This document shows, one piece after another, positions 53,012 through 63,976 of a stretch of 64,000 nucleotides of DNA. A program made the translations under genes and the position numbers. The notes under the pieces were generated by a model. That model was not told where the DNA came from and did no database searches. It saw only the letters and a program-made list of their open reading frames with translations. Each line of letters begins with the position of its first letter. Position 1 is the stretch's first letter. Source of the stretch: Phaeobacter sp. A36a-5a (GTDB taxonomy: Bacteria > Pseudomonadota > Alphaproteobacteria > Rhodobacterales > Rhodobacteraceae); the NCBI RefSeq assembly GCF_037911135.1, contig NZ_JBBLYU010000001.1, forward strand, positions 1,116,001 to 1,180,000, given 5' to 3'.

Positions 53012-54331
53012 ATGTTCTTTCAATGGCTCAAACACTATATGCCGCGCAGCCTTTACGGGCGGGCGGCGCTTATCCTGCTGGTGCCGATCGTAACGCTGCA
53101 ACTGGTGATTTCGGTTGTGTTCATCAAGCGTGACCTCGAGGATCTGACGGTCCAGATGACGCTCACAATGCTGCGCGAGCTGCGCCTGCTGGAGCAGGTG
53201 ATGGCACCGGCTGGCAGTCGCGAGGAGGCCCTGCAACTGGCCGATCCGCTGCTGCGACCGCTCCAGATGCAGCTGCGCTTTCTCGAGCCGGAGGAGCCGG
53301 TACCGCTGGATCAGATGGGGCTACTGGAGTTTTCGGGCCGGGTGGTGCGGGACACCTTGCAGGCGACGGCGCCACGGTTCATCTCTGCCCAGTTCCCCAA
53401 CACGCGCCGGGTGCAGCTGGTGCTGGATAGCGAACACGGGCCACTGGCGCTGGTGTTTGACAGGCGGCGACTGACGGCAGCGGCGCCGCATCAGCTGATT
53501 GTCACCATGATCGTCTTTGGTTTCCTGATGACGGTCATCGCATTCGTCTACATGCGTAACCAGCTGCGCCCGATCAAGCAGCTCGCGGAAGCGGCACAGG
53601 CCTTTGGGCGGGGACGAACGGAGCCTTATTCGCCGCGCGGGGCCAATGAGGTGCGCGCCGCCGGCAGCGCCTTTCTGGACATGCGAGCGCGGATCGAACG
53701 TCAGATGGAGCAGCGCACGCTGATGCTCTCCGGTGTCAGCCACGATCTGCGCACGCCGCTGACGCGCATGAAACTGGGCCTGTCAATGCTGGATGACGAG
53801 GAGGCCGAGCCGCTGCGTCAGGATGTCGACGAGATGCAGGCGCTCCTGGATGCCTTTCTCGACTTCTCGCGCGGTGTCTCCACCAGCGAGCCGGAAGAAG
53901 TGGATCCGCATGTGATGATCACGCTGCTGGTCGATGGCTGGCGGCGGCAGGGCAAGGATGTGATGCTCGGCGAGATGAGCGGCGAAGGCAAGGTGATGCT
54001 GCGCGGCGCAGCGATGCGTCGGGCCGTGCAGAATCTGATCTCAAACGCAGTGCGTTATGGCACCCGCGCACGGGTGTCCGTTGCCATGACCGAGAAATTC
54101 CTGCGCATAAGGGTCGAGGATGACGGTCCTGGCATTGCAGAGGCGGACCGGACCGAGGCGACCCGGCCCTTTACCCGGCTTGATCCTGCCCGCAATCAGG
54201 ATCTTGGCAGCGGGGTTGGTCTGGGGCTGGCGATTGTCACCGATATTGCGCGCGCGCATGGTGGGACGCTCCGGCTGGGCATCAGCGCCGAGCTGGGTGG
54301 GCTACAGGCCGATATCGTGATCGGCTTGTAA
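53012..54331 (+). CDS. EnvZ-like sensor histidine kinase without adjacent regulator
   Basis: 439 residues. Two membrane spans (about 18-37, LILLVPIVTLQLVISVVFI, and 155-176, LIVTMIVFGFLMTVIAFVYM) around a periplasmic segment of ~115 residues. HAMP, then HisKA with His about 244 in LSGVSHDLRTPLTRMKLGLSML and the ATPase domain (NLISNAVRYG, DDGPGIAEADR, GVGLGLAIVTDI). The EnvZ-like layout (R-x-x-L at 183 region, QLRPIKQLAEAAQAFGRG) suggests an OmpR-type partner encoded elsewhere. Nearest regulator genes are not adjacent. Confidence 0.92.
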   Translation: MFFQWLKHYMPRSLYGRAALILLVPIVTLQLVISVVFIKRDLEDLTVQMTLTMLRELRLLEQVMAPAGSREEALQLADPLLRPLQMQLRFLEPEEPVPLDQMGLLEFSGRVVRDTLQATAPRFISAQFPNTRRVQLVLDSEHGPLALVFDRRRLTAAAPHQLIVTMIVFGFLMTVIAFVYMRNQLRPIKQLAEAAQAFGRGRTEPYSPRGANEVRAAGSAFLDMRARIERQMEQRTLMLSGVSHDLRTPLTRMKLGLSMLDDEEAEPLRQDVDEMQALLDAFLDFSRGVSTSEPEEVDPHVMITLLVDGWRRQGKDVMLGEMSGEGKVMLRGAAMRRAVQNLISNAVRYGTRARVSVAMTEKFLRIRVEDDGPGIAEADRTEATRPFTRLDPARNQDLGSGVGLGLAIVTDIARAHGGTLRLGISAELGGLQADIVIGL

Positions 54332-54353: not shown

Positions 54354-55460
54354 TCAGATCAGCTCTGAGATCTCTACGCTGCGCCGCTCGGCAATGGAGA
54401 TCTGCGCCGCCATCCCCATGAGCACTGCCATCCGCCCATCATGAAGGGTCACCTCAGGTGTTGCGCGTTCGCCGCGGACCAGTTCGAGGAACTTCTGGTG
54501 CTGATAAAAGGTGGATCCGTTGTGATCACCCGCCTCAAGAAGTTCGGGATCAACAGGAATCTCTTGTGTTACAGGGCCTCTGGGGGAGCGTGGCGAGGTC
54601 ACCAGCTTCGGCAGCGGCGGCGCGCCCAGATGGGTGGGCCAGAACCGCCCCGGTCCGGGCACAAAGGCTTCGATCTTGCCTGTGGGGCCGACGGCGGCGA
54701 CCTCTTCCTGATATTCAGCGCCTTCGGCAAACATGCACAGGTCCAGCATGGCGCGCGCGCCGCAGCGGAAGTCGACGATCACGTAGCCATTGTCGAGGAT
54801 GTCAGGCACACCATCGCTGTAGCGTTCATCGAGATGGTTCACATCCTGACCGCCGCTGGCCATAACCCGTAGCGGTTCAGAACCGAGCGTCAGCCGCATC
54901 AGATCGAAGAAGTGACAGCATTTCTCAACAAAGGTGCCTCCGGATTTGGCGTCAAACCGGTTCCAGTCATCGACTTTTGCGAGAAATGGAAACCGATGCT
55001 CGCGGATGCTCAGCATCTTGATGCCGCCGGTCGCTGTCTGGGCCTGCTTCAGGAAAGCCGCAATGGGGGGCATATAGCGATATTCCATCGCCACCCAAAC
55101 GGGGGCCGGATAATCTGCTGCAAAACCGTCCAGTCGTGCCAGATCGGCAAGACTGGTGAACAGCGGTTTTTCGACCAGCACCGGTAACGGGCGCAGGCGG
55201 GACAGGGTCTCCAGCTGCTCCAGATGGCGGAAATTGGGACTGGCGATCAACAGGCAGTCAAGCTCAGCTACAGCCAGCAGGGCCTCGATACTGTCCACGA
55301 ACGCTGCATCAGGGGCGAGTGTGGCGGCAGTCTCGCGCATGGCCGCATTGGGTTCATAGATCGCACCGACCCGCGTGTTGTCCAGCAGGGCGATATTGCG
55401 CAGATGTTCCTGGCCCATCATGCCGCAGCCGATGATTCCATAGGTGGTGGGGTGTGACAT
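54354..55460 (-). CDS. Gfo/Idh/MocA family oxidoreductase
   Basis: 368 residues. N-terminal Rossmann fold GIIGCGMMGQEHLRNIALLDNTRVGAIYEPN, then LLIASPNFRH, VLVEKPLFTS with the conserved E-K-P lysine, and the C-terminal substrate domain with GGTFVEKCCHFFDLMRLTLGSEPLRVMASGG (catalytic His/Asp region). Such enzymes oxidise or reduce sugar, inositol or amino-sugar rings with NAD(P). The ribosome-binding site overlaps the stop of the GntR gene upstream (GTAGGAGG), so the two are one operon. Divergent neighbours include an aldo/keto reductase, pointing to sugar-like substrates. Confidence 0.92.
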   Translation of the reverse strand: MSHPTTYGIIGCGMMGQEHLRNIALLDNTRVGAIYEPNAAMRETAATLAPDAAFVDSIEALLAVAELDCLLIASPNFRHLEQLETLSRLRPLPVLVEKPLFTSLADLARLDGFAADYPAPVWVAMEYRYMPPIAAFLKQAQTATGGIKMLSIREHRFPFLAKVDDWNRFDAKSGGTFVEKCCHFFDLMRLTLGSEPLRVMASGGQDVNHLDERYSDGVPDILDNGYVIVDFRCGARAMLDLCMFAEGAEYQEEVAAVGPTGKIEAFVPGPGRFWPTHLGAPPLPKLVTSPRSPRGPVTQEIPVDPELLEAGDHNGSTFYQHQKFLELVRGERATPEVTLHDGRMAVLMGMAAQISIAERRSVEISELI

Positions 55461-55468
55461 GTTTCCTC

Positions 55469-56197
55469 CTACGTCAGGCGCTGCACATAAAGCGCCCTGT
55501 CCGGGTCAAACCAAGTGCGTGAGAACTCCACGGCGGCCTCATCCTGTGCCCAGCTTAGCCGTTCGATATACCCAACCGTCGCGCCCGGGGGCTTGCCAAA
55601 CCGTGTCGGCGCCCAGTCGGGCACCCGACCAAGCGATACCCGATCCTCGGCTCGGCTGATCCAGAAGCCCAGATGCAGCCGATAATATCTATAGAGGGAA
55701 TCGGACAGCTGTCCGGCATCGACCTGTCCCGCGCCACCATCCAGCCAGATCTCTTCAACGGCAATCACCACATCATCGAGATACCGCAACCGCCTGATCC
55801 GGGTGCCACTGCCTGACCTGCCAAATTCGGGCAGTGTTTCGGGCTTGGCGAGCGCGGTCACCGACAGAACATCTGCCGTGGGCAAGCCACCACCGCCGGG
55901 CAGCTCCAGCCGAAACATCGAATAGACGCTTTGCACTGACTGGGTGGTGCGGATGTAGTTTCCCGATCCCTGAATCCGTTCGAGCATCCCCTGTTTTTCT
56001 AGCTCCGACAGGGATTTGCGCAGGGTTCTTACGGTGGTTCCATACTGCTGCGCCAGCTGACGCTCGGGCGGCAGTCGCTCCCCGTCGGCCAACCTCCCGG
56101 CCGCGATCTCACGGGTCAGGGACTCGCTGATCTGAAGGTAAAGCGGCAGCGCGCTGGCAGTGGAGCGGGCGGTGGGCATGGGGCCAATCGTCACCAT
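55469..56197 (-). CDS. GntR-family regulator (HutC/UTRA type)
   Basis: 242 residues from ATG 56197 (56179 and 56248 are other possible starts). Winged helix: LPLYLQISESLTREIAAGRLADGERLPPERQLAQQYGTTVRTLRKSLSELEKQGMLERIQGSGNYI. The C-terminal UTRA ligand domain follows (RIRRLRYLDDVVIAVEEIWLDGGAGQVDAGQLSDSLYRYY ... TVGYIERLSWAQDEAAVEFSRTWFDPDRALYVQRL). UTRA regulators bind small sugars or carboxylates and repress catabolic genes. Divergent from the monooxygenase operon, so probably its repressor. Confidence 0.92.
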   Translation of the reverse strand: MVTIGPMPTARSTASALPLYLQISESLTREIAAGRLADGERLPPERQLAQQYGTTVRTLRKSLSELEKQGMLERIQGSGNYIRTTQSVQSVYSMFRLELPGGGGLPTADVLSVTALAKPETLPEFGRSGSGTRIRRLRYLDDVVIAVEEIWLDGGAGQVDAGQLSDSLYRYYRLHLGFWISRAEDRVSLGRVPDWAPTRFGKPPGATVGYIERLSWAQDEAAVEFSRTWFDPDRALYVQRLT

Positions 56198-56280: not shown

Positions 56281-57435
56281 ATGAGCGTTGTTCCGGTAAC
56301 ATCCGCGGATCTTGATGCGGTCGAAGTGTCCTGGTTTGCGGCACTCTGCTCGGACGATTACCAGTTTCTTGGTGTACCGGATGGTGACCTGCGGTCGTCC
56401 TGGGCGCATTGCTCCGACATCGTGAAAGAGGCAGAGGCGCAGGGGTTTCGCAATATCCTTTGCCCGTCGTCCTATCAGGTGGGTCAGGATACGCTCAGCT
56501 TTGTGGCGGGCTGTGCGCCGATCACTGACAGGATCAACATGCTGGCAGCGGTGCGCTGCGGCGAGATGCAGCCGATCATGCTGGCGCGTACCCTGGCCAC
56601 CTTGGATCACATGCTGAAGGGGCGGCTGACGGTCAATATTATCTCCTCCGATTTTCCGGGGGAGACCGCCGACAGCGGCTTTCGCTATCAGCGCTCGCGC
56701 GAAGTGGTCGAGATCCTGAAACAGGCCTGGACCCGGGATGAGATCAACCACAAGGGCGAGGTTTACCAATTCGAAGGGCTGACCACCGATCCGGCGAGAC
56801 CCTATCAGACTGGCGGGCCGCTGCTGTATTTCGGTGGCTATTCCCCGGCGGCGCTGGAGCTCTGCGGTGAACATTGCGATGTCTACCTGATGTGGCCGGA
56901 AAAGATGGAAGATCTGGCCGGTCGGATGCAGGCGGTCCATAGCGTCGCGGAAACTTATGGGCGTACGCTTGATTATGGTCTGCGGGTGCATGTGATTGTC
57001 CGCGACACCGAGGCAGAAGCCTATGAATACGCCGATCACCTTGTATCGAAACTGGATGATGCGCAGGGCAAGGCCATTCGGGAGCGGGCGCTGGATGCCA
57101 CCTCGCTGGGCGTGGCGCATCAGGCCAAGAACCGCGATATTGCTGATGAATTTGGGTTTATCGAACCGAACCTCTGGACAGGGATAGGGCGGGCACGCTC
57201 TGGTTGCGGGGCGGCGCTGGTCGGATCCACCGATCAGGTCATGTCAAAGCTGGAAGCCTACCAGAAGATGGGCATCCGCGCCTTTGTGCTGTCGGGCTAC
57301 CCGCATCTGGAGGAAGCGCGGCATTTCGGGGCGCGGGTGATGCCACATCTAAAAACCTGCTCACTGCCGCATGAATATGGCCGGGTGCCGCAATCGACCC
57401 CGGCGACACCCCTAGGGAACGGAGAACGTCGTTGA
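56281..57435 (+). CDS. SsuD/SmoC-like FMNH2-dependent monooxygenase (LLM class)
   Basis: 384 residues from ATG 56281, after GAGGGAGAGACCG. TIM-barrel flavin monooxygenase close to alkanesulfonate monooxygenase: AAVRCGEMQPIMLARTLATLDHMLKGRLTVNIISSDFPGE, PLLYFGGYSPAALELCGEHCDVYLMW, GLRVHVIVRDTEAEA, EPNLWTGIGRARSGCGAALVG and FVLSGYPHLEEARHFG. The Arg and His of LRVHVIVR, the Arg of GRARSG and the Tyr of SGYPHLEE correspond to SsuD catalytic/sulfonate-binding positions. SsuD and the sulfoquinovose monooxygenase SmoC cleave C-S bonds to aldehyde plus sulfite. Coupled with an aldo/keto reductase and flavin reductase; exact substrate unproven. Confidence 0.88.
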   Translation: MSVVPVTSADLDAVEVSWFAALCSDDYQFLGVPDGDLRSSWAHCSDIVKEAEAQGFRNILCPSSYQVGQDTLSFVAGCAPITDRINMLAAVRCGEMQPIMLARTLATLDHMLKGRLTVNIISSDFPGETADSGFRYQRSREVVEILKQAWTRDEINHKGEVYQFEGLTTDPARPYQTGGPLLYFGGYSPAALELCGEHCDVYLMWPEKMEDLAGRMQAVHSVAETYGRTLDYGLRVHVIVRDTEAEAYEYADHLVSKLDDAQGKAIRERALDATSLGVAHQAKNRDIADEFGFIEPNLWTGIGRARSGCGAALVGSTDQVMSKLEAYQKMGIRAFVLSGYPHLEEARHFGARVMPHLKTCSLPHEYGRVPQSTPATPLGNGERR

Positions 57436-58325
57436 TGGAACGGATCAAGATCGCAGTCGGGCTGGAGTTCAGCCGTCTGGTCTATGGCATGTGGCGTCTT
57501 GGCGATGACAGCGATACCTCGACCGCCCATGTCGAGGCCAAGATCGAGGCCTGTCTGGCGCAGGGGATCACCACCTTTGATCAGGCCGATATCTATGGCG
57601 GCTATACAGCCGAAGGGATCCTGGGGCGGGCGCTGAAGGCGAATCCAGCCCTGCGTGAGCAGATGGAGATCGTCACCAAATGCGATATCGTGGCTCCGGT
57701 CGGGCGCTATGCGGACGCGGCGGTCAAACATTACGATACCTCCGCCGCCCATATCACCCGTTCGGTTGAGACGTCGCTGATGGAGATGGGCATCGACCAT
57801 ATCGACCTCTTGCTGATCCATCGGCCGGATCCGCTGATGGATCATGTCGAGACAGGGGCCGCGCTGGACGCGCTGGTCGCCGCAGGCAAATTGCGCGCCG
57901 TCGGCGTGTCGAACTTCCGTCCCTGGGATTGGGAGCTGCTGCAATCGGCGATGAAGACGCCGCTGGCCACCAATCAGATCGAACTCTCTTTGTCCGAGAT
58001 CAGCCCTTTCACCAACGGCGATCTGGCCTTTCATCAGCGGCAGGGGCATCCGCTGATGGCGTGGTCACCGCTTGGCGGTGGGGGGCTGATGACCGGGAGC
58101 GGCCAATTGGCCGATCGGCTGGATGTGATTGCTGCCGCGCAAGGCGTTGACCGCGCCGCCGTCGCCATAGCCTTCCTGCTGCGGCACCCGGCTCAGATCC
58201 TGCCGGTGCTGGGCACCAATAATCTGGAGCGGATCAAACAGGCCTCTGACGCGCTGAAGGTCGAGCTGGACCGCCCGACCTGGTTCACCCTGTACGAGGC
58301 GGCATTGGGCCGGGAGGTCGCATGA
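57435..58325 (+). CDS. Aldo/keto reductase (SmoB/YdhF-like)
   Basis: 296 residues from ATG 57435, overlapping the monooxygenase stop (TGATG). AKR tetrad is visible: Asp and Tyr in FDQADIYGGYTAEGILGRAL, Lys in IVTKCDI and His in DLLLIHRPDP; NADPH-binding C-terminus AIAFLLRHPAQILPVLGTNNLERI. The YdhF-type subfamily reduces small aldehydes. Next to the SsuD-like enzyme the expected substrate is the aldehyde released by C-S cleavage, as 6-oxo-glucose is for SmoB in the sulfoquinovose monooxygenase pathway (analogy). The stop overlaps the next start (ATGA at 58322). Confidence 0.9.
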   Translation: MERIKIAVGLEFSRLVYGMWRLGDDSDTSTAHVEAKIEACLAQGITTFDQADIYGGYTAEGILGRALKANPALREQMEIVTKCDIVAPVGRYADAAVKHYDTSAAHITRSVETSLMEMGIDHIDLLLIHRPDPLMDHVETGAALDALVAAGKLRAVGVSNFRPWDWELLQSAMKTPLATNQIELSLSEISPFTNGDLAFHQRQGHPLMAWSPLGGGGLMTGSGQLADRLDVIAAAQGVDRAAVAIAFLLRHPAQILPVLGTNNLERIKQASDALKVELDRPTWFTLYEAALGREVA

Positions 58326-58846
58326 TGTCGGCACATGCAGGGCAGGGCAAACACAGCTTTGTTCCGGCACCGGACAACACGCGGCTGCTGCGCGACGCCT
58401 TTGGCCGGTTCGCAACTGGGGTCACCATCGTGACCGCAGCCTCCGATCAGGGGGTTGTGGCGATCACCGCCAACAGTTTTTCCTCGGTCTCGCTGACTCC
58501 GCCGCTGGTGCTGTGGTCGCCAGACCGCAACTCGCGGCGCTTTCCCTATTTCGAGACAGCCCGCCACTACGCCATCCACGTTCTGGCGGCGGATCAGGAT
58601 GATCTGTGTTGGCAGGTCGCAAAAGATGCTTTTGGGCTGAACCATTTGCAGCTGGAGCGCAACGAAAACGGGGTGCCGCTCTTGGAAAACTGTCTGGCGC
58701 GGTTTGAATGCACCCGTTCAGCCATCCATGACGGGGGAGACCACGCCATCGTTCTGGGTCACGTTGACCGCGCCACCATGCGCGAAGAAGGGGACGCATT
58801 GACATTCTACAAGGGCCAGATGGGTCAGATCGCCGTGTCACGCTAG
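58322..58846 (+). CDS. Flavin reductase (SmoA/RutF-like), partner of the monooxygenase
   Basis: 174 residues, ATG 58322 overlapping the aldo/keto reductase stop. Family pattern LLRDAFGRFATGVTIVTAASDQGVVAITANSFSSVSLTPPLVLWSPDRNSRRF, YAIHVLAADQDDLCWQVAKDAFG, and CTRSAIHDGGDHAIVLGHV with the GDHxI-G motif. It supplies FMNH2 to the SsuD-like enzyme. The three overlapping genes form a tight enzyme module ending 62 bases before the TRAP genes. Confidence 0.92.
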   Translation: MMSAHAGQGKHSFVPAPDNTRLLRDAFGRFATGVTIVTAASDQGVVAITANSFSSVSLTPPLVLWSPDRNSRRFPYFETARHYAIHVLAADQDDLCWQVAKDAFGLNHLQLERNENGVPLLENCLARFECTRSAIHDGGDHAIVLGHVDRATMREEGDALTFYKGQMGQIAVSR

Positions 58847-58907
58847 CGACCGGCTGCCTGCACCAAGGGAGGTTGGTGCGGGCACATTGGGGGAGGAGAG
58901 AGACGCG

Positions 58908-59498
58908 ATGATGGCAGTTCTGTCGGTCCTGAACATACTGCGCCCGCTCAACACCGGCCTGCTTGCGCTCGGCCGATGGGTGGGCGTTTTTGCCATTGGC
59001 CTGATGGTTCTGGCGATCCTGATTCAGGTCTTCTTTCGCTACGTGCTGGGCAGTGCCTTGCCCTGGCCGGATGAGGCCGCGCGGTTCTGCATGTTGTGGA
59101 TGACCGGCCTGATGGCGCCGACCGCACTGCGCAACGGTGGTTTTGTGGCCATTGATGTTATCGACTCTCTGCTGCGTGGGCGGCTGTTCCACCTGCTGCA
59201 GCTGCTGCTATTGGCGATTGGCCTGACAGTGCTGATCGTTGGTATTCAGATCGGATATAGGGAGGTCACCGGTCTTGGCGGGCGGTTTGCCACTGCCTCG
59301 CTCTATGTTCCGACCTCTCTCGGGTTTGACAGCTGGCACCGGGTGCCCCGAAGCTGGATGATGCTGTCGCTTGTGGTGGGCCTGGGCCTGCTGATCCTGG
59401 TCAATATCGAGCTGATCCTGGAACGCATCGTGCGACTGTTCGGTCAGGGTGATCGCCTGCCGGACCGTCCAGGCATGACCATCGGAGGGGCCGAGTGA
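58908..59498 (+). CDS. TRAP transporter small permease (DctQ family)
   Basis: 196 residues from ATG 58908 (GGGGGAGGAGAG before it). Four membrane spans (about 24-46, 61-80, 97-118, 158-179). DctQ motif FFRYVLGSALPWPDEAARFCMLWMTGLMAPTALRNGGFVAIDVI. Its stop overlaps the large permease start (GTGATG at 59495-59500). Part of the uptake system that follows the desulfonation-like enzymes. Confidence 0.93.
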   Translation: MMAVLSVLNILRPLNTGLLALGRWVGVFAIGLMVLAILIQVFFRYVLGSALPWPDEAARFCMLWMTGLMAPTALRNGGFVAIDVIDSLLRGRLFHLLQLLLLAIGLTVLIVGIQIGYREVTGLGGRFATASLYVPTSLGFDSWHRVPRSWMMLSLVVGLGLLILVNIELILERIVRLFGQGDRLPDRPGMTIGGAE

Positions 59499-60973
59499 TG
59501 CTGATCTGGTTCCTACCGCTGTTCCTGTTTCTTCTGCTGATCGGTCTGCCGGTCTTTTTCTGTCTTCTGGCAGCCCCGGGTGCCCTACTGTGGCTGAATG
59601 GCCAAGAACGCGATCTCACCCTGTTGTATCGCAATCTCTATAACGGGATGGACAGCTTTCCGCTGATGGCGATCCCGTTTTTCATGCTGGCTGGCGAGTT
59701 GATGAATCGCGGTGGTATCACCGTTCGGCTGGTCGAATTCTCGCAGGCGCTGATGGGTCATCTGCGCGGCGGTCTGGCGCAGGTGAACATCCTGTCGTCG
59801 ATCTTGTTTGCCGGCCTCTCGGGCTCTGCCGTGGCCGATACCTCTGCCCTTGGGTCCATGTTGATCCCGGCGATGGAGCGCGAAGGCTACAGTCGCAAAT
59901 TCGCCGCGGCCGTCACTGCCGCCAGTTCGGTGATCGGGCCAATCATTCCGCCATCCGGCATTATGATCATCTATGCTTATGTCATGGGCGAAAGCGTTGC
60001 CGCGCTGTTCCTCGCAGGCATCGTTCCGGGTGTTCTGGTCGGCGTCGGCCTGATGATCATGGTCCGCGCCATGGCCGACCGGTATGAGCTGCCGGCCGCA
60101 CGGCGGGTGGTGTTCGACAGCGTTGAGATCGGCGCGATGGAGCGCTGGTTCTCCTTTGGGCTGGTGCGGCTCAACCTTGGCCTGTTGCTGGCACAGTTTG
60201 TCCCGCTGGGCGAGGGGGCCGGAGCGCAGATCAAATGGCTGGTGTTCCTTGGCGCGGTTCTGTTTGCCCATGGGCTGATGCTGGGGCTGCGCCGGATGGT
60301 CAGCCCGGCGTTTCGCACCATTTGCAAACGAGCGGTGGTGCCGTTGCAGACGCCTGTCCTGATCCTTGGTGGCATTCTTGCCGGCGTATTCACCCCGACC
60401 GAGGCAGCTGCCGTGGCGGTGGCCTATGCGCTGCTGATCAGCTTTCTGGTGCTGGGGTCGATGCGGCTGGCGGACCTGCCGCAGGTGTTCACGAGGGCGG
60501 GGATCACCTCCGCCGTGGTGCTGCTGCTGGTGGGCGCCGCGATGTCGTTCAAGACCGTCGTCAGCCTCAGTCACGCGCCGGAACAGCTGGCGGATTTCAT
60601 CCTCACCCTCTCGGAAAATCCGCTGATCCTGCTGTTCCTGATCAATCTCTTGCTGTTTGTCGTGGGCATGTTCCTGGATGCGGGCCCTGCGATCATCATC
60701 CTTGGCCCGATCCTCGGACCGGTGTTCACCGATCTTGGCGTCGACTCGGTCCATTTTGCCATCATCATGTGTGTGAACCTGACGGTTGGTCTGGCGACAC
60801 CGCCGATGGGGCTGGTGCTGTTTGTGGCAGCCGCCGTTTCGCAAGAGCGGGTCACAACAATTGCCCGGGCGATCCTGCCCTTTCTTGCGATTGAAATTGC
60901 GGTGATCTTTCTGATCACCTTTGTGCCGGCCATTTCGCTGACCATTCCGCGGTTGACCGGATTTCTGAACTAA
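59498..60973 (+). CDS. TRAP transporter large permease (DctM family)
   Basis: 491 residues from ATG 59498. About 12 to 13 membrane spans. DctM motifs: FFMLAGELMNRGGITVRLVEFSQALMGHLRGGLAQVNILSSILFAGLSGSAVADTSALGSMLIPAMEREGYSRKFAAAVTAASSVIGPIIPPSGIMIIYAYVMGES and VVGMFLDAGPAIIILGPIL. A ~60-residue insertion near the middle (about 215-275) is longer than usual. Na+-driven transport subunit. Confidence 0.94.
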   Translation: MLIWFLPLFLFLLLIGLPVFFCLLAAPGALLWLNGQERDLTLLYRNLYNGMDSFPLMAIPFFMLAGELMNRGGITVRLVEFSQALMGHLRGGLAQVNILSSILFAGLSGSAVADTSALGSMLIPAMEREGYSRKFAAAVTAASSVIGPIIPPSGIMIIYAYVMGESVAALFLAGIVPGVLVGVGLMIMVRAMADRYELPAARRVVFDSVEIGAMERWFSFGLVRLNLGLLLAQFVPLGEGAGAQIKWLVFLGAVLFAHGLMLGLRRMVSPAFRTICKRAVVPLQTPVLILGGILAGVFTPTEAAAVAVAYALLISFLVLGSMRLADLPQVFTRAGITSAVVLLLVGAAMSFKTVVSLSHAPEQLADFILTLSENPLILLFLINLLLFVVGMFLDAGPAIIILGPILGPVFTDLGVDSVHFAIIMCVNLTVGLATPPMGLVLFVAAAVSQERVTTIARAILPFLAIEIAVIFLITFVPAISLTIPRLTGFLN

Positions 60974-61019
60974 GGACTACCCGATACCCAGAATAAAAGA
61001 GCAACAGGAGGAGACACGA

Positions 61020-62078
61020 ATGCTCAGCAAAATGGTGAAGACACTGGCCCTGTCGGCCCTGATGGCAGGCACCGCGCTGTCGGCCTACGCCGCAGACTAC
61101 AAGATCCGCGCGACCGCCAATTCCAACGAGAATGACGAGGATTACGACGGTCTGGTCGTGTTCAAGAACTACGTCGAAGCGGCCTCCAATGGCGCAATCG
61201 AGGTTGAATTGTTCATCGGCACCCAGCTTTGCTCCAACGGGGCAGAATGCCTGCAAGGCGTCGCGGATGGTTCAATCGACATCTATATTTCCACCTCCGG
61301 TGGCGCGTCGGGGTTGTTCCCTTACGTCCAGGTGCTGGATCTGCCCTATCTGATGGCGGATGACCGGATTGCCGAACATGTGCTGTCGGGCGATTTCACC
61401 CGCACTATGCGCCGGATGGCACTGGAGGATTCCGGCGATGCGATCCGCCTGATGACCATTGGCAACACCGGCGGCTGGCGCAACTTCGCCAATACCAAAC
61501 GCCGGGTCGCGGAACCTGCCGACATGGAAGGTCTGAAAATCCGAACGGTCGTCGCCGACCTGCCGCAGGAGCTGGTAAAGGCGCTCGGGGCCTCTCCGAC
61601 ACCGATTCCCTGGCCGGAGCTGTTTACCTCGTTCCAGACCGGCGTGGTCGAAGGCTCCAAGAACGGCATCACCGATATTATGGGCATGAAATTCCCCGAC
61701 GCTGGCCTGCAATATGTGACGCTGGACGGACACGCCTATATGGGGGCGCTGTGGTGGATGTCGAACCAAACCTTCACCAGTATGCCGGAAGACATGCGGC
61801 AGGTCGTGGTCGATGGCTTCTACGCGCTGCAACAGGCCACATTTGCCTCGCCGAAGCGCAAGTCGATCCAGGCCTATGAGGATTTTGTTGCCGGTGGCGG
61901 CGATCTCTATGTTCCGACGCCCGAACAGAAGGCGGCGTTCAAATCCGCAGCCGAGCCGGTCTATGACTGGTTCAAATCCAACGTGACGCGCGGCGATGAG
62001 ATCTTTACCGCGCTGACCGATGCAGTCGCCAAGGCCGAAGCCGACGTCAACGCGGCACGTGCCGCCGATCTGAACTGA
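61020..62078 (+). CDS. TRAP transporter substrate-binding protein (DctP family)
   Basis: 352 residues from ATG 61020 with AGGAGGAGAC ahead. Signal peptide about 1-24 (LALSALMAGTALSAYA). P-subunit pattern: GLVVFKNYVEAASNGAIEVELFIGTQLCSNGAECLQGVADGSIDIYISTSGGASG, VLDLPYLMADDRIAEHVLSG, and LKIRTVVADLPQELVKALGASPTPIPWPELFTSFQTGVVEGSKNGITDI with the carboxylate/anion-binding Arg in KIRTV. The ligand is predicted to be the substrate of the adjacent monooxygenase. Confidence 0.92.
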   Translation: MLSKMVKTLALSALMAGTALSAYAADYKIRATANSNENDEDYDGLVVFKNYVEAASNGAIEVELFIGTQLCSNGAECLQGVADGSIDIYISTSGGASGLFPYVQVLDLPYLMADDRIAEHVLSGDFTRTMRRMALEDSGDAIRLMTIGNTGGWRNFANTKRRVAEPADMEGLKIRTVVADLPQELVKALGASPTPIPWPELFTSFQTGVVEGSKNGITDIMGMKFPDAGLQYVTLDGHAYMGALWWMSNQTFTSMPEDMRQVVVDGFYALQQATFASPKRKSIQAYEDFVAGGGDLYVPTPEQKAAFKSAAEPVYDWFKSNVTRGDEIFTALTDAVAKAEADVNAARAADLN

Positions 62079-62137: not shown

Positions 62138-62644
62138 CTAGCGAAACGGATACATCCAGACCTTATAGTCCGCGACCAGAACATGCGCTTTCTCGATCTC
62201 CGCAGGGGTCATTTTCTTGACCACCTCTTCAAGGCTGATCGCCGCATCGGGATCACCGCCAATGGCCGACAGCGTGTACCACATATAGGCGCGTACCAAG
62301 TCGGGGGCGGGCAGCCCACGGCCGATTTCATAGTACCAACCGATACCCGATTGCGCGCCGGGGTGTCCCTTCATGGCGCTGCGCAGATACCATTCAAAGG
62401 CCCGCTGGTCGTCACGGTCAACACCCAGCCCCATGGCATACATCACCCCGATCAGCTCTTCAGCGTCTGCGTTGCCGGAGCGCGCTGCTGGCCAGAGCGC
62501 CTCGCGCGCAGCCGCAAATTCGCCGGCCTCCATCAGGTCGCGCGCCTGCTCGATTTCGGCCCGCGCGGGCAGCGGGACCAGCAGCGTCAGGCTGCTCGTG
62601 GACAGCGCCATCGCGGCCAGAACCGGTTTCCATCTCTTGCGCAT
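62138..62644 (-). CDS. SEL1-like repeat secreted protein
   Basis: 168 residues from ATG 62644, with AGGAGAG seven bases ahead. Signal peptide about 1-29 (LAAMALSTSSLTLLVPLPARA). Then helical SEL1/TPR-like repeats: ARDLMEAGEFAAAREALWPAARSGNADAEELIGVMYAMGLGVDRDDQRAFEWYLRSAMKGHPGAQSGIGWYYEIGRGLPAPDLVRAYMWYTLSAIGGD. Such proteins scaffold others in the periplasm. The start codon directly abuts the start region of the divergent cytochrome peroxidase gene. Partner unknown. Confidence 0.85.
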   Translation of the reverse strand: MRKRWKPVLAAMALSTSSLTLLVPLPARAEIEQARDLMEAGEFAAAREALWPAARSGNADAEELIGVMYAMGLGVDRDDQRAFEWYLRSAMKGHPGAQSGIGWYYEIGRGLPAPDLVRAYMWYTLSAIGGDPDAAISLEEVVKKMTPAEIEKAHVLVADYKVWMYPFR

Positions 62645-63976
62645 GTGCTCTCCTGTGTTGTGCTGGCGTTTGGCCTTTTTGCGGGGTCGGCGGCTGCGAC
62701 TGATCCACGGTTTCCGCCGCCGCTGGGGGTAAGCGATTTTCTACCCGTAGACCCCGCAAAGGCCGAGTTGGGTCGGCTGCTATTTTACGACAAGATCCTG
62801 TCCGGGAACAGAAATATCAGCTGCGGAACCTGCCATCATCCGCGCCATGGCACCTCTGACGGGCTATCCTTAGGCCTTGGAGAAGGCGGCGAGGGGCTGG
62901 GCCGGGCGCGGGTTTCCACCAGGGGCAGCAACCGGGTGCAAAAACGCATCCCCCGCAATGCGCCCGCGCTCTGGAACCTCGGGGCAAAATCCATCCGGGT
63001 TCTGATGCACGACGGGCGGATCAGCGCGGATCCGGTCTATGGCAATGGCTTCAACACCCCAGCAGAGGAATGGCTGCCTGACGGGCTGCAATCCCTGCTG
63101 GCGGCGCAGGCGCTGTTTCCGATGACGTCCAGCGTGGAAATGGCCGGGAATGTCGGCGAGAATGAAATCATCGGTGCCAGCCGCGACCGGATTGATCTGG
63201 CCTGGCCGATCATTGCCAAACGCGTCCGCGGCCTGCCGACATATGCGGCGGGGTTTGTCGCCGCCTTTGATCACATCATGGCGCCTGAGGATGTGCAGAT
63301 CACCGATATCGCGGAGGCTCTGGCCCAGTTCATGGTGCAGGATTTCACCTCGTTCGACAGCCCGTTTGATGCCTATCTGGCCGGGGATGCGACGGCGCTG
63401 ACCGCGCAGCAAAAAGCCGGTGCCGATCTGTTTTTTGGCAGCGCCGGATGCAGCGGCTGCCATGCTGGGCCGCTGTTTTCGGATCAGAACTTCTACGCCC
63501 TTGGTTTGCCGGCCTTTGGCCCCGGTCGCGCGCGCCGCTTTGACCCCTACGCCCGGGATGTCGGTCGAATGGGAGAAAGCGACGATCTGTCAGATGCCTA
63601 CCGCTTTCGCACGCCGATGCTGCGCAATGTGGAACTGACCGCGCCTTATGGCCATAATGGCGCTTTTCCGACGCTTGACCGGATGATCCGGCATCACCTC
63701 GATCCAGTCGCAAGCCGTTCGGCGTGGACGCCTGACGATCTGCAATTGCCAGATGTGCCCTGGCTGGCCGCCACGGATTTTGTGGTACAGCAGGACCGGT
63801 TCGAGATGGCGCGACAGGCGCGCGCGCGGGATATCTATCTACCCCGGGACCTCAGCGATCAGGACATCGCAGCGCTGATCGCTTTCCTCACAGCACTCAC
63901 CGGGGCAGAGGCCCGCGCCGAAACGTCATCAGTACCCGCATCCGTTCCAAGCGGCCTGCCCGTTGATGGGACCTAA
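62645..63976 (+). CDS. Di-haem cytochrome c peroxidase (CCP/MauG family)
   Basis: About 443 residues if translation starts at GTG 62645; GTG 62657 is also possible and neither has a strong ribosome-binding site. Signal peptide about 1-18 (VVLAFGLFAGSAAA). Two c-type haem sites: CGTCHH near residue 59 and CSGCHAG near 275. Between them QAQALFPMTSSVEMAG and RTPMLRNVELTAPYGHNGAFPTLDRMI carry the usual axial-ligand region. CCP/MauG enzymes reduce peroxide or make protein-derived cofactors in the periplasm. Divergent from and abutting the SEL1-like gene. Function here unknown. Confidence 0.85.
   Translation: MLSCVVLAFGLFAGSAAATDPRFPPPLGVSDFLPVDPAKAELGRLLFYDKILSGNRNISCGTCHHPRHGTSDGLSLGLGEGGEGLGRARVSTRGSNRVQKRIPRNAPALWNLGAKSIRVLMHDGRISADPVYGNGFNTPAEEWLPDGLQSLLAAQALFPMTSSVEMAGNVGENEIIGASRDRIDLAWPIIAKRVRGLPTYAAGFVAAFDHIMAPEDVQITDIAEALAQFMVQDFTSFDSPFDAYLAGDATALTAQQKAGADLFFGSAGCSGCHAGPLFSDQNFYALGLPAFGPGRARRFDPYARDVGRMGESDDLSDAYRFRTPMLRNVELTAPYGHNGAFPTLDRMIRHHLDPVASRSAWTPDDLQLPDVPWLAATDFVVQQDRFEMARQARARDIYLPRDLSDQDIAALIAFLTALTGAEARAETSSVPASVPSGLPVDGT

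Follow-up and report, generated by a model that had tools for sequence, protein, structure and literature searches.

The membranes of plants and algae contain a sulfur-bearing sugar, sulfoquinovose (SQ), whose use by Roseobacter bacteria has reportedly been treated by Liu 2023 and Ma 2025. According to parts of PMC10755693, about 10 billion tons of SQ are made per year, and bacteria of the Roseobacter clade are thought to contribute to its turnover in the sea. In the sulfoquinovose monooxygenase (sulfo-SMO, or sulfo-ASMO) pathway of Agrobacterium tumefaciens and Novosphingobium aromaticivorans, as outlined in sections of PMC9594981, an SsuD-family SQ monooxygenase and an aldo/keto reductase yield glucose and sulfite; many of the clusters carry a flavin reductase, and A. 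tumefaciens uses an ATP-binding cassette (ABC) transporter for sulfoquinovosyl glycerol (SQGro). In the relevant portion of PMC13372026, an ABC importer is not a defining feature of sulfo-SMO, and passages of PMC10755693 describe a GH188 enzyme as near-universal in the sulfo-SMO clusters of the marine Roseobacter clade. Here a stretch of 64,000 nucleotides of Phaeobacter sp. A36a-5a (hereafter the window; assembly of 4.05 Mb in 12 contigs) is analysed, in which the same types of monooxygenase, aldo/keto reductase and flavin reductase are encoded together with a GH188 sulfoquinovosidase and, in place of the ABC importer of A. tumefaciens, a tripartite ATP-independent periplasmic (TRAP) importer.

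The locus very probably represents a sulfo-SMO-type operon for the uptake and desulfonation of sulfoquinovosides; its uptake ligand and enzyme activities are predicted from the families and conserved residues of the proteins, from gene neighbourhoods and co-occurrence, and from the conserved motif. Taken as a whole, it is well supported as a known pathway in a TRAP-linked form. A TRAP-linked sulfo-SMO module had been proposed in an earlier note made from the DNA letters alone, and the scores of SmoC and SmoB against solved structures bear the proposal out. The full-length SmoC gave 715 bits to 7olf and 689 bits to 7oh2, presumably SmoC structures, and SmoB gave 433 bits to 7bbz/7bby, the runner-up structure reaching 216 bits. 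smoB and smoC are encoded adjacently, the arrangement by which sulfo-SMO is recognised in PMC13372026. The putative SmoA carries PF01613; its best equivalog was FerA (195 bits, under the cut-off of 260), its score to 4xhy was 135 bits, and no SmoA-specific model exists among those used. That the monooxygenase is instead a general SsuD-type alkanesulfonate enzyme for sulfur scavenging, in an operon unrelated to sulfosugars, was rejected as almost certainly wrong: SmoC does belong to the SsuD family and the SsuD equivalog TIGR03565 is its top NCBIfam match, but it reaches 250 bits against a cut-off of 518, the alignment to SmoC and SsuD suggested in the earlier note places it far nearer 7olf/7oh2 than the SsuD structures (192–196 bits), and among 80 SmoC loci SmoB is found in 80 and GH188 in 79.

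The gene next to the regulator had been taken for a Gfo/Idh/MocA oxidoreductase; the family was right, while its identity as a GH188 sulfoquinovosidase was missed. SqgA scored 542 bits to 8zn9, 366 to 8qc3 and 362 to 8qc2, with the next structure at 66 bits, and 8QC2, 8QC3, 8QC5, 8QC6 and 8QC8 are listed as GH188 SqgA structures in a section of PMC10755693. The residues to be checked were taken from that paper. In an alignment with ArSqgA (180 of 355 positions identical), Lys107, Tyr136, Arg166, Leu170, Lys172, Glu189, His193 and His321 of ArSqgA are all kept (8/8), and the corresponding K98, Y127, R156, L160, K162, E179, H183 and H313 are invariant in 94/94 rows. The window protein thus has both the GH188 sulfonate triad of Arg, Leu and Lys and the Lys, Tyr, Glu, His and His that take part in catalysis or contact the sugar. 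Glu163 of PMC10755693 was left uncounted, as it mapped to a non-Glu column in which the structure chain has V and the window R. By these sequence features the gene is a GH188 sulfoquinovosidase, for which NAD+-dependent glycoside cleavage is predicted; an assignment as inositol dehydrogenase was rejected (90 of 355 bits). The SQase that the earlier note advised seeking in related genomes is therefore already inside this cluster. The note had named as substrate a sulfosugar or other organosulfonate; the sulfosugar stands, and the scope narrows, since the adjacent GH188 gene points to SQ and its glycosides. Because sulfo-SMO clusters with GH188 have been published for the Roseobacter clade (Kaur 2023, PMC10755693), the core of the locus is already known and the window belongs to this published group. 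The genome is taken for a member of the Roseobacter clade, order Rhodobacterales, since in the DctP tree Phaeobacter italicus is the closest row to the window sequence.

Gene neighbourhoods were compared in two samples. A SmoC scan confirmed 527 relatives, of which the best 80, that is the nearest relatives, were analysed as loci, some of them shortened by contig ends. The order-level sample comprised 195 genomes, each at least 90% complete, in which genes within 12 kb were counted as close. The best 80 loci hold SmoC and SmoB in 80, the GntR regulator in 80, GH188 and SmoA in 79 each, and a TRAP importer of the window type in 63. This recurrence indicates that the clustering is not due to chance, and together with intact open frames and agreeing Pfam families it upholds every gene and position of the earlier note. 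At the order level, SmoC is present in 91 of the 195 genomes, with SqgA close to SmoC in 90 of these and the TRAP protein in 63. The earlier note stated that such pathways normally come with an ABC importer, which does not hold here: among the sampled relatives of the window, TRAP is the commoner importer of sulfo-SMO clusters (63/80). Ruegeria sp. TM1040 shows the same layout as the window; public records leave the GH188 glycosidase unnamed. A Rhizobium plasmid carries the layout too, without the Sel1 and MauG-like genes.

The binding protein of the importer, DctP, occurs beyond the monooxygenase clusters. Window-type DctP was detected in 77 of the 195 order genomes; 12 of these 77 have no SmoC, and GH188 lies close by in 12/12. 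The 12 SmoC-less loci (L085–L096) carry an SQ-isomerase-like gene and a PfkB kinase in 12/12 and genes for an aldolase, a mutarotase and an aldehyde dehydrogenase in 11/12 each (two of the aldehyde dehydrogenases being partial matches), resembling the Embden–Meyerhof–Parnas (EMP) type of sulfoglycolysis; the isomerase model SftI gave 252 bits, under its cut-off of 700, so the EMP label rests on homology. Three of these loci come from a genus that also holds SMO-type genomes. In a scan of the phylum, a close DctP was found in 17 of 397 genomes, 14 of them in the family of the window. The other three keep all eight checked GH188 residues. L143 (DctP 66% identical) encodes GH188, GntR, a SmoB-like reductase, DctQMP and a TauD-family dioxygenase (535 bits to 9yut), and L145 (49% identical) encodes GH188 with the EMP-type isomerase, kinase and aldolase. 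L144 (47–48% identical) is an Entner–Doudoroff (ED)-type cluster of a dehydratase, an HpcH/HpaI aldolase, an aldehyde dehydrogenase, an SDR and TauE, whose GH188-like protein is 34% identical to the window SqgA. The dioxygenase and ED labels of L143 and L144 were given by family and neighbourhood. Three further apparent sulfoquinovose pathways, of EMP, dioxygenase and ED type, thus have TRAP relatives next to GH188. In the genomes examined, the sulfoquinovose dioxygenase (sulfo-SDO) and sulfo-EMP/ED clusters share GH188 and the same kind of TRAP importer with the window, whereas their SQ-processing enzymes are absent from the window cluster, the one exception being the SmoB-like reductase that goes with the dioxygenase. 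Counting EMP/SMO swaps on the DctP tree was rejected as proof: the best tree gave 3 changes, but a single clade was not rejected (approximately unbiased (AU) test, p 0.238); the EMP label changes once on the SqgA tree and twice on the MauG tree.

Regulation provides a further tie. The UTRA-GntR gene is present in 80/80 SmoC loci, and the operator-like site AATTGATACACCATTGATCTACATCAA between this gene and smoC has 0 expected copies in the window; with up to 3 mismatches, the 25-base pattern has a single occurrence in the genome of the window. Its 16-base core TTGATRCACYATTGAT, with at most 2 substitutions, lies upstream of smoC in 80/80 loci, at a distance of at most 160 bases in 74 and of about 160–205 bases in 6. 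In two genomes, G077 and G084, TRAP and smoC are on different contigs, and exact copies of the 14-base core TTGATRCACYATTG occur genome-wide only before smoC and before the detached dctQ. The copies before dctQ lie 318 and 190 bases ahead of the start of the dctQ match. The smo-type motif was not found before TRAP in the EMP-type loci, 7/12 of which have a DeoR-type regulator instead, nor in L098–L100, which hold a detached Sel1–MauG pair, nor in L097, which holds MauG alone. Control of the operon by the GntR protein through this site is proposed.

Considering the EMP-type loci, the relatives in the phylum and the motif regulation, the TRAP importer appears tied to sulfoquinovose and not to SmoC alone. 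The alternative that the enzymes are sulfo-SMO while the importer carries another kind of ligand (for instance a carboxylate or a C2/C3 sulfonate) is unlikely. A ligand is not deducible from sequence alone, the best structural matches of DctP are generic TRAP proteins, and DctP scores 95 bits to 8t9t, the structure of an isethionate TRAP protein; against this stand the same DctP subfamily beside GH188 in EMP-type loci, its close relatives likewise in dioxygenase- and ED-type loci, and the smo-type motif before the detached TRAP. R154 and R175 of DctP align with R127 and R147 of SiaP and are invariant in 82/82 rows, so that R175 occupies the position of the ligand-anchoring SiaP R147. As described in part of PMC4646407, such a TRAP arginine governs carboxylate binding; in DctP, the two arginines could hold the sulfonate.

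Several points weigh against a TRAP-linked sulfo-SMO operon as the reading of this locus. The identification of 7olf/7oh2 as SmoC and of 7bby/7bbz as SmoB is our assumption, the depositor names being generic, and the flavin reductase is assigned as a putative SmoA from family and position only. The search for TTGATRCACYATTGAT with 2 substitutions allowed also gave 1 match in 20 shuffled control loci and one stray match each in L068 and L087, and G077 and G084 share one genus, so that the operon may have been split only once. Window-type DctP is missing from 17 of the 80 SmoC loci; 2 of the 17 retain DctQ and part of DctM, and 6 have all three of the ABC genes that were searched for, 1 of these 6 being the source of the ABC queries and 1 matching at 45–57%.

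For the TRAP-linked operon, the following route would apply. Periplasmic SQGro or SQ would be bound by DctP and imported by DctQM, and cytosolic SqgA, using NAD+, would free SQ. With reduced flavin provided by SmoA, SmoC and O2 would cut the C–S bond to give sulfite and 6-dehydroglucose, which SmoB would turn into glucose, the operon being controlled by the UTRA-GntR protein. The sulfite might then be oxidised; one candidate for this is the Sox system whose genes immediately precede the window. Sulfite oxidation genes, which the earlier note had advised looking for nearby, are indeed present there: SoxC, encoded about 59 kb upstream of smoC, reached 590 bits (cut-off 420), and the SoxB frame, shortened by the locus end, 534 bits (cut-off 550). 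Both soxB and soxC (sulfite dehydrogenase) lie in locus L110 on contig C1 at about 1112–1115 kb, before window base 1. A sulfate-exporter-like gene occurs in 18/80 SmoC loci and 0/12 EMP-type loci, a distribution that fits sulfite formation in the former; the gene adjoins MauG in Ruegeria sp. TM1040 and is absent within about 12 kb downstream of the cluster in the genome of the window. Copies following the cluster are found at L146 17079–18104, L149 13926–14885 and L011 18005–19030.

Beyond the importer, a secreted Sel1-repeat protein and a MauG-like protein are encoded by genes that abut head to head after TRAP, and this pair is possibly a new accessory component. PF03150 and two c-type haem motifs are common to the window protein and the MauG/MbnH/cytochrome c peroxidase family, from which it differs in falling below the cut-offs of its three nearest models, TIGR03981 (238/340 bits), MbnH (135/363) and MauG TIGR03791 (113/444), and in a conserved His-His pair (70–71 of 72 rows, the two CXXCH motifs being present in 72/72), where other members of the family carry Met or Tyr. 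MauG and MbnH modify partner proteins; a corresponding action of the MauG-like enzyme on Sel1 is speculative. Sel1 and MauG occur together in 52/63 TRAP-type SmoC loci, in 12/12 EMP-type TRAP loci and in 0/17 SmoC loci without window-type TRAP. In the 67 loci reaching at least 9.5 kb past the smoC start, MauG is found in 42/52 with TRAP and 0/15 without. With a threshold of at least 525 bits (the next score being 448), the MauG subfamily was detected in 62/195 order genomes, 61 of which have window-type DctP, within 12 kb in 57/62, and in 13/397 phylum genomes, all in the family of the window. A need for MauG in SmoC chemistry only was rejected, because MauG also follows TRAP in the 12 SmoC-less genomes. 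Fisher's p values for these co-occurrences disregard kinship and were given no weight.

That the two genes merely stayed neighbours through shared ancestry and play no part in the use of sulfoquinovose is given slightly less than an even chance. An independent-pairs test of TRAP against MauG yielded 2 supported pairs, too few to reach significance, the pair is missing from 11/63 TRAP loci (10/52 of those with at least 9.5 kb from the smoC start to the locus end), and in four genomes MauG lies at a distance from TRAP; three such loci were searched for the smo-type motif and showed none. Descent alone accords less well with the distribution over TRAP-bearing and TRAP-less loci, with the presence of DctP in nearly all genomes of the MauG subfamily, and with the next commonest neighbour gene occurring in only 18/81 loci. 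G158, without window-type TRAP, has a MauG-like gene (52% identical, 448 bits) 2.9 kb from smoC, and among the lower-scoring MauG-like matches listed, 11/88 lie within 25 kb of smoC; G002 has such a gene 9.2 kb from smoC, along with TRAP and a nearer MauG. Since MauG-like genes stand near smoC without window-type TRAP, the link is not purely to TRAP, and MauG-like genes may gather around smo genes as such. The region in G158 lies on contig C39 at 228426–232555, downstream of the smoC start. A paralogue in the genome of the window (L102 5516–7919, contig C5), 51% identical, follows an aldose 1-epimerase gene, near genes for an FG-GAP/UnbV protein, a ROK regulator and an ABC ATPase, a neighbourhood suggestive of a part in sugar uptake for the MauG-like family at large.

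The features are collected in Table 1. smoC, smoB and smoA have overlapping starts and stops, and all subunits of the importer are encoded at 58887–62078. The module extent given in the earlier note (56281–62078) is too small: 54354–56197 belongs to it as well, and perhaps also 62138–63976. The MauG-like gene has a probable GTG start at 62645, with the mature part from about 62699. An EnvZ-like sensor kinase at 53012–54331 adjoins the cluster; a close homologue occurs in 1/80 loci (L005), and it is probably unrelated.

Table 1. Features of the sulfo-SMO-type locus, in window positions.
Feature	Position	Strand	Assignment and basis
sqgA	54354-55460	-	predicted GH188 NAD+-dependent sulfoquinovosidase; annotated family Gfo/Idh/MocA; structure matches and kept residues
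gntR	55469-56197	-	UTRA-GntR regulator; ATG at 56197; PF00392 and PF07702
operator-like site AATTGATACACCATTGATCTACATCAA	56206-56232	+	between gntR and smoC
smoC	56281-57435	+	predicted FMNH2-dependent sulfoquinovose monooxygenase, LLM family; structure and equivalog scores
smoB	57432 (or ATG 57435)-58325	+	aldo/keto reductase; predicted conversion of 6-dehydroglucose to glucose
smoA	58322-58846	+	putative NAD(P)H flavin reductase; PF01613
dctQ	58887-59498	+	TRAP small permease; PF04290
dctM	59495-60973	+	TRAP large permease; TIGR00786, 402 bits (cut-off 268)
dctP	61020-62078	+	TRAP solute-binding protein, PF03480; predicted to bind sulfoquinovose/sulfoquinovosyl glycerol
sel1	62138-62644	-	secreted Sel1-repeat protein; Pfam Sel1 match in the L085 homologue; presumed member of the module
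MauG-like	62645-63976	+	di-haem, MauG/CcpA-like, cytochrome c peroxidase family, PF03150; presumed member of the module

The main text of PMC10755693 holds none of the terms TRAP, transporter, tripartite, MauG and Sel1, whereas TRAP, Sel1 and MauG-like genes are all present in the window. Literature searches, mostly at listing level, returned no paper combining sulfoquinovose, a TRAP transporter and a monooxygenase and no report of a TRAP system for a sulfosugar; in the sulfoquinovose papers with 'trap' that were checked, the word stood only for an ion trap, a trap column or the verb, and the portions of main text covered from PMC12890257, PMC9594981, PMC13372026 and PMC13219744 hold no word starting with 'trap'. 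It is quite possible that the TRAP genes of sulfoquinovose clusters are already in print.

A broader picture is offered tentatively, with odds that lean against it: Proteobacteria might have joined a portable sulfoquinovoside front end of TRAP and GH188 to at least four back ends (monooxygenase, dioxygenase, EMP-type and ED-type), to which the order of the window would add a periplasmic Sel1 and MauG-like accessory, the latter possibly oxidising or modifying Sel1. If true, the importer would be a TRAP system for a sulfosugar, and with Sel1/MauG a new component would be added. Knowing the importer would give a marker gene independent of the downstream enzymes, with which metagenomes could be searched for sulfoquinovoside uptake.

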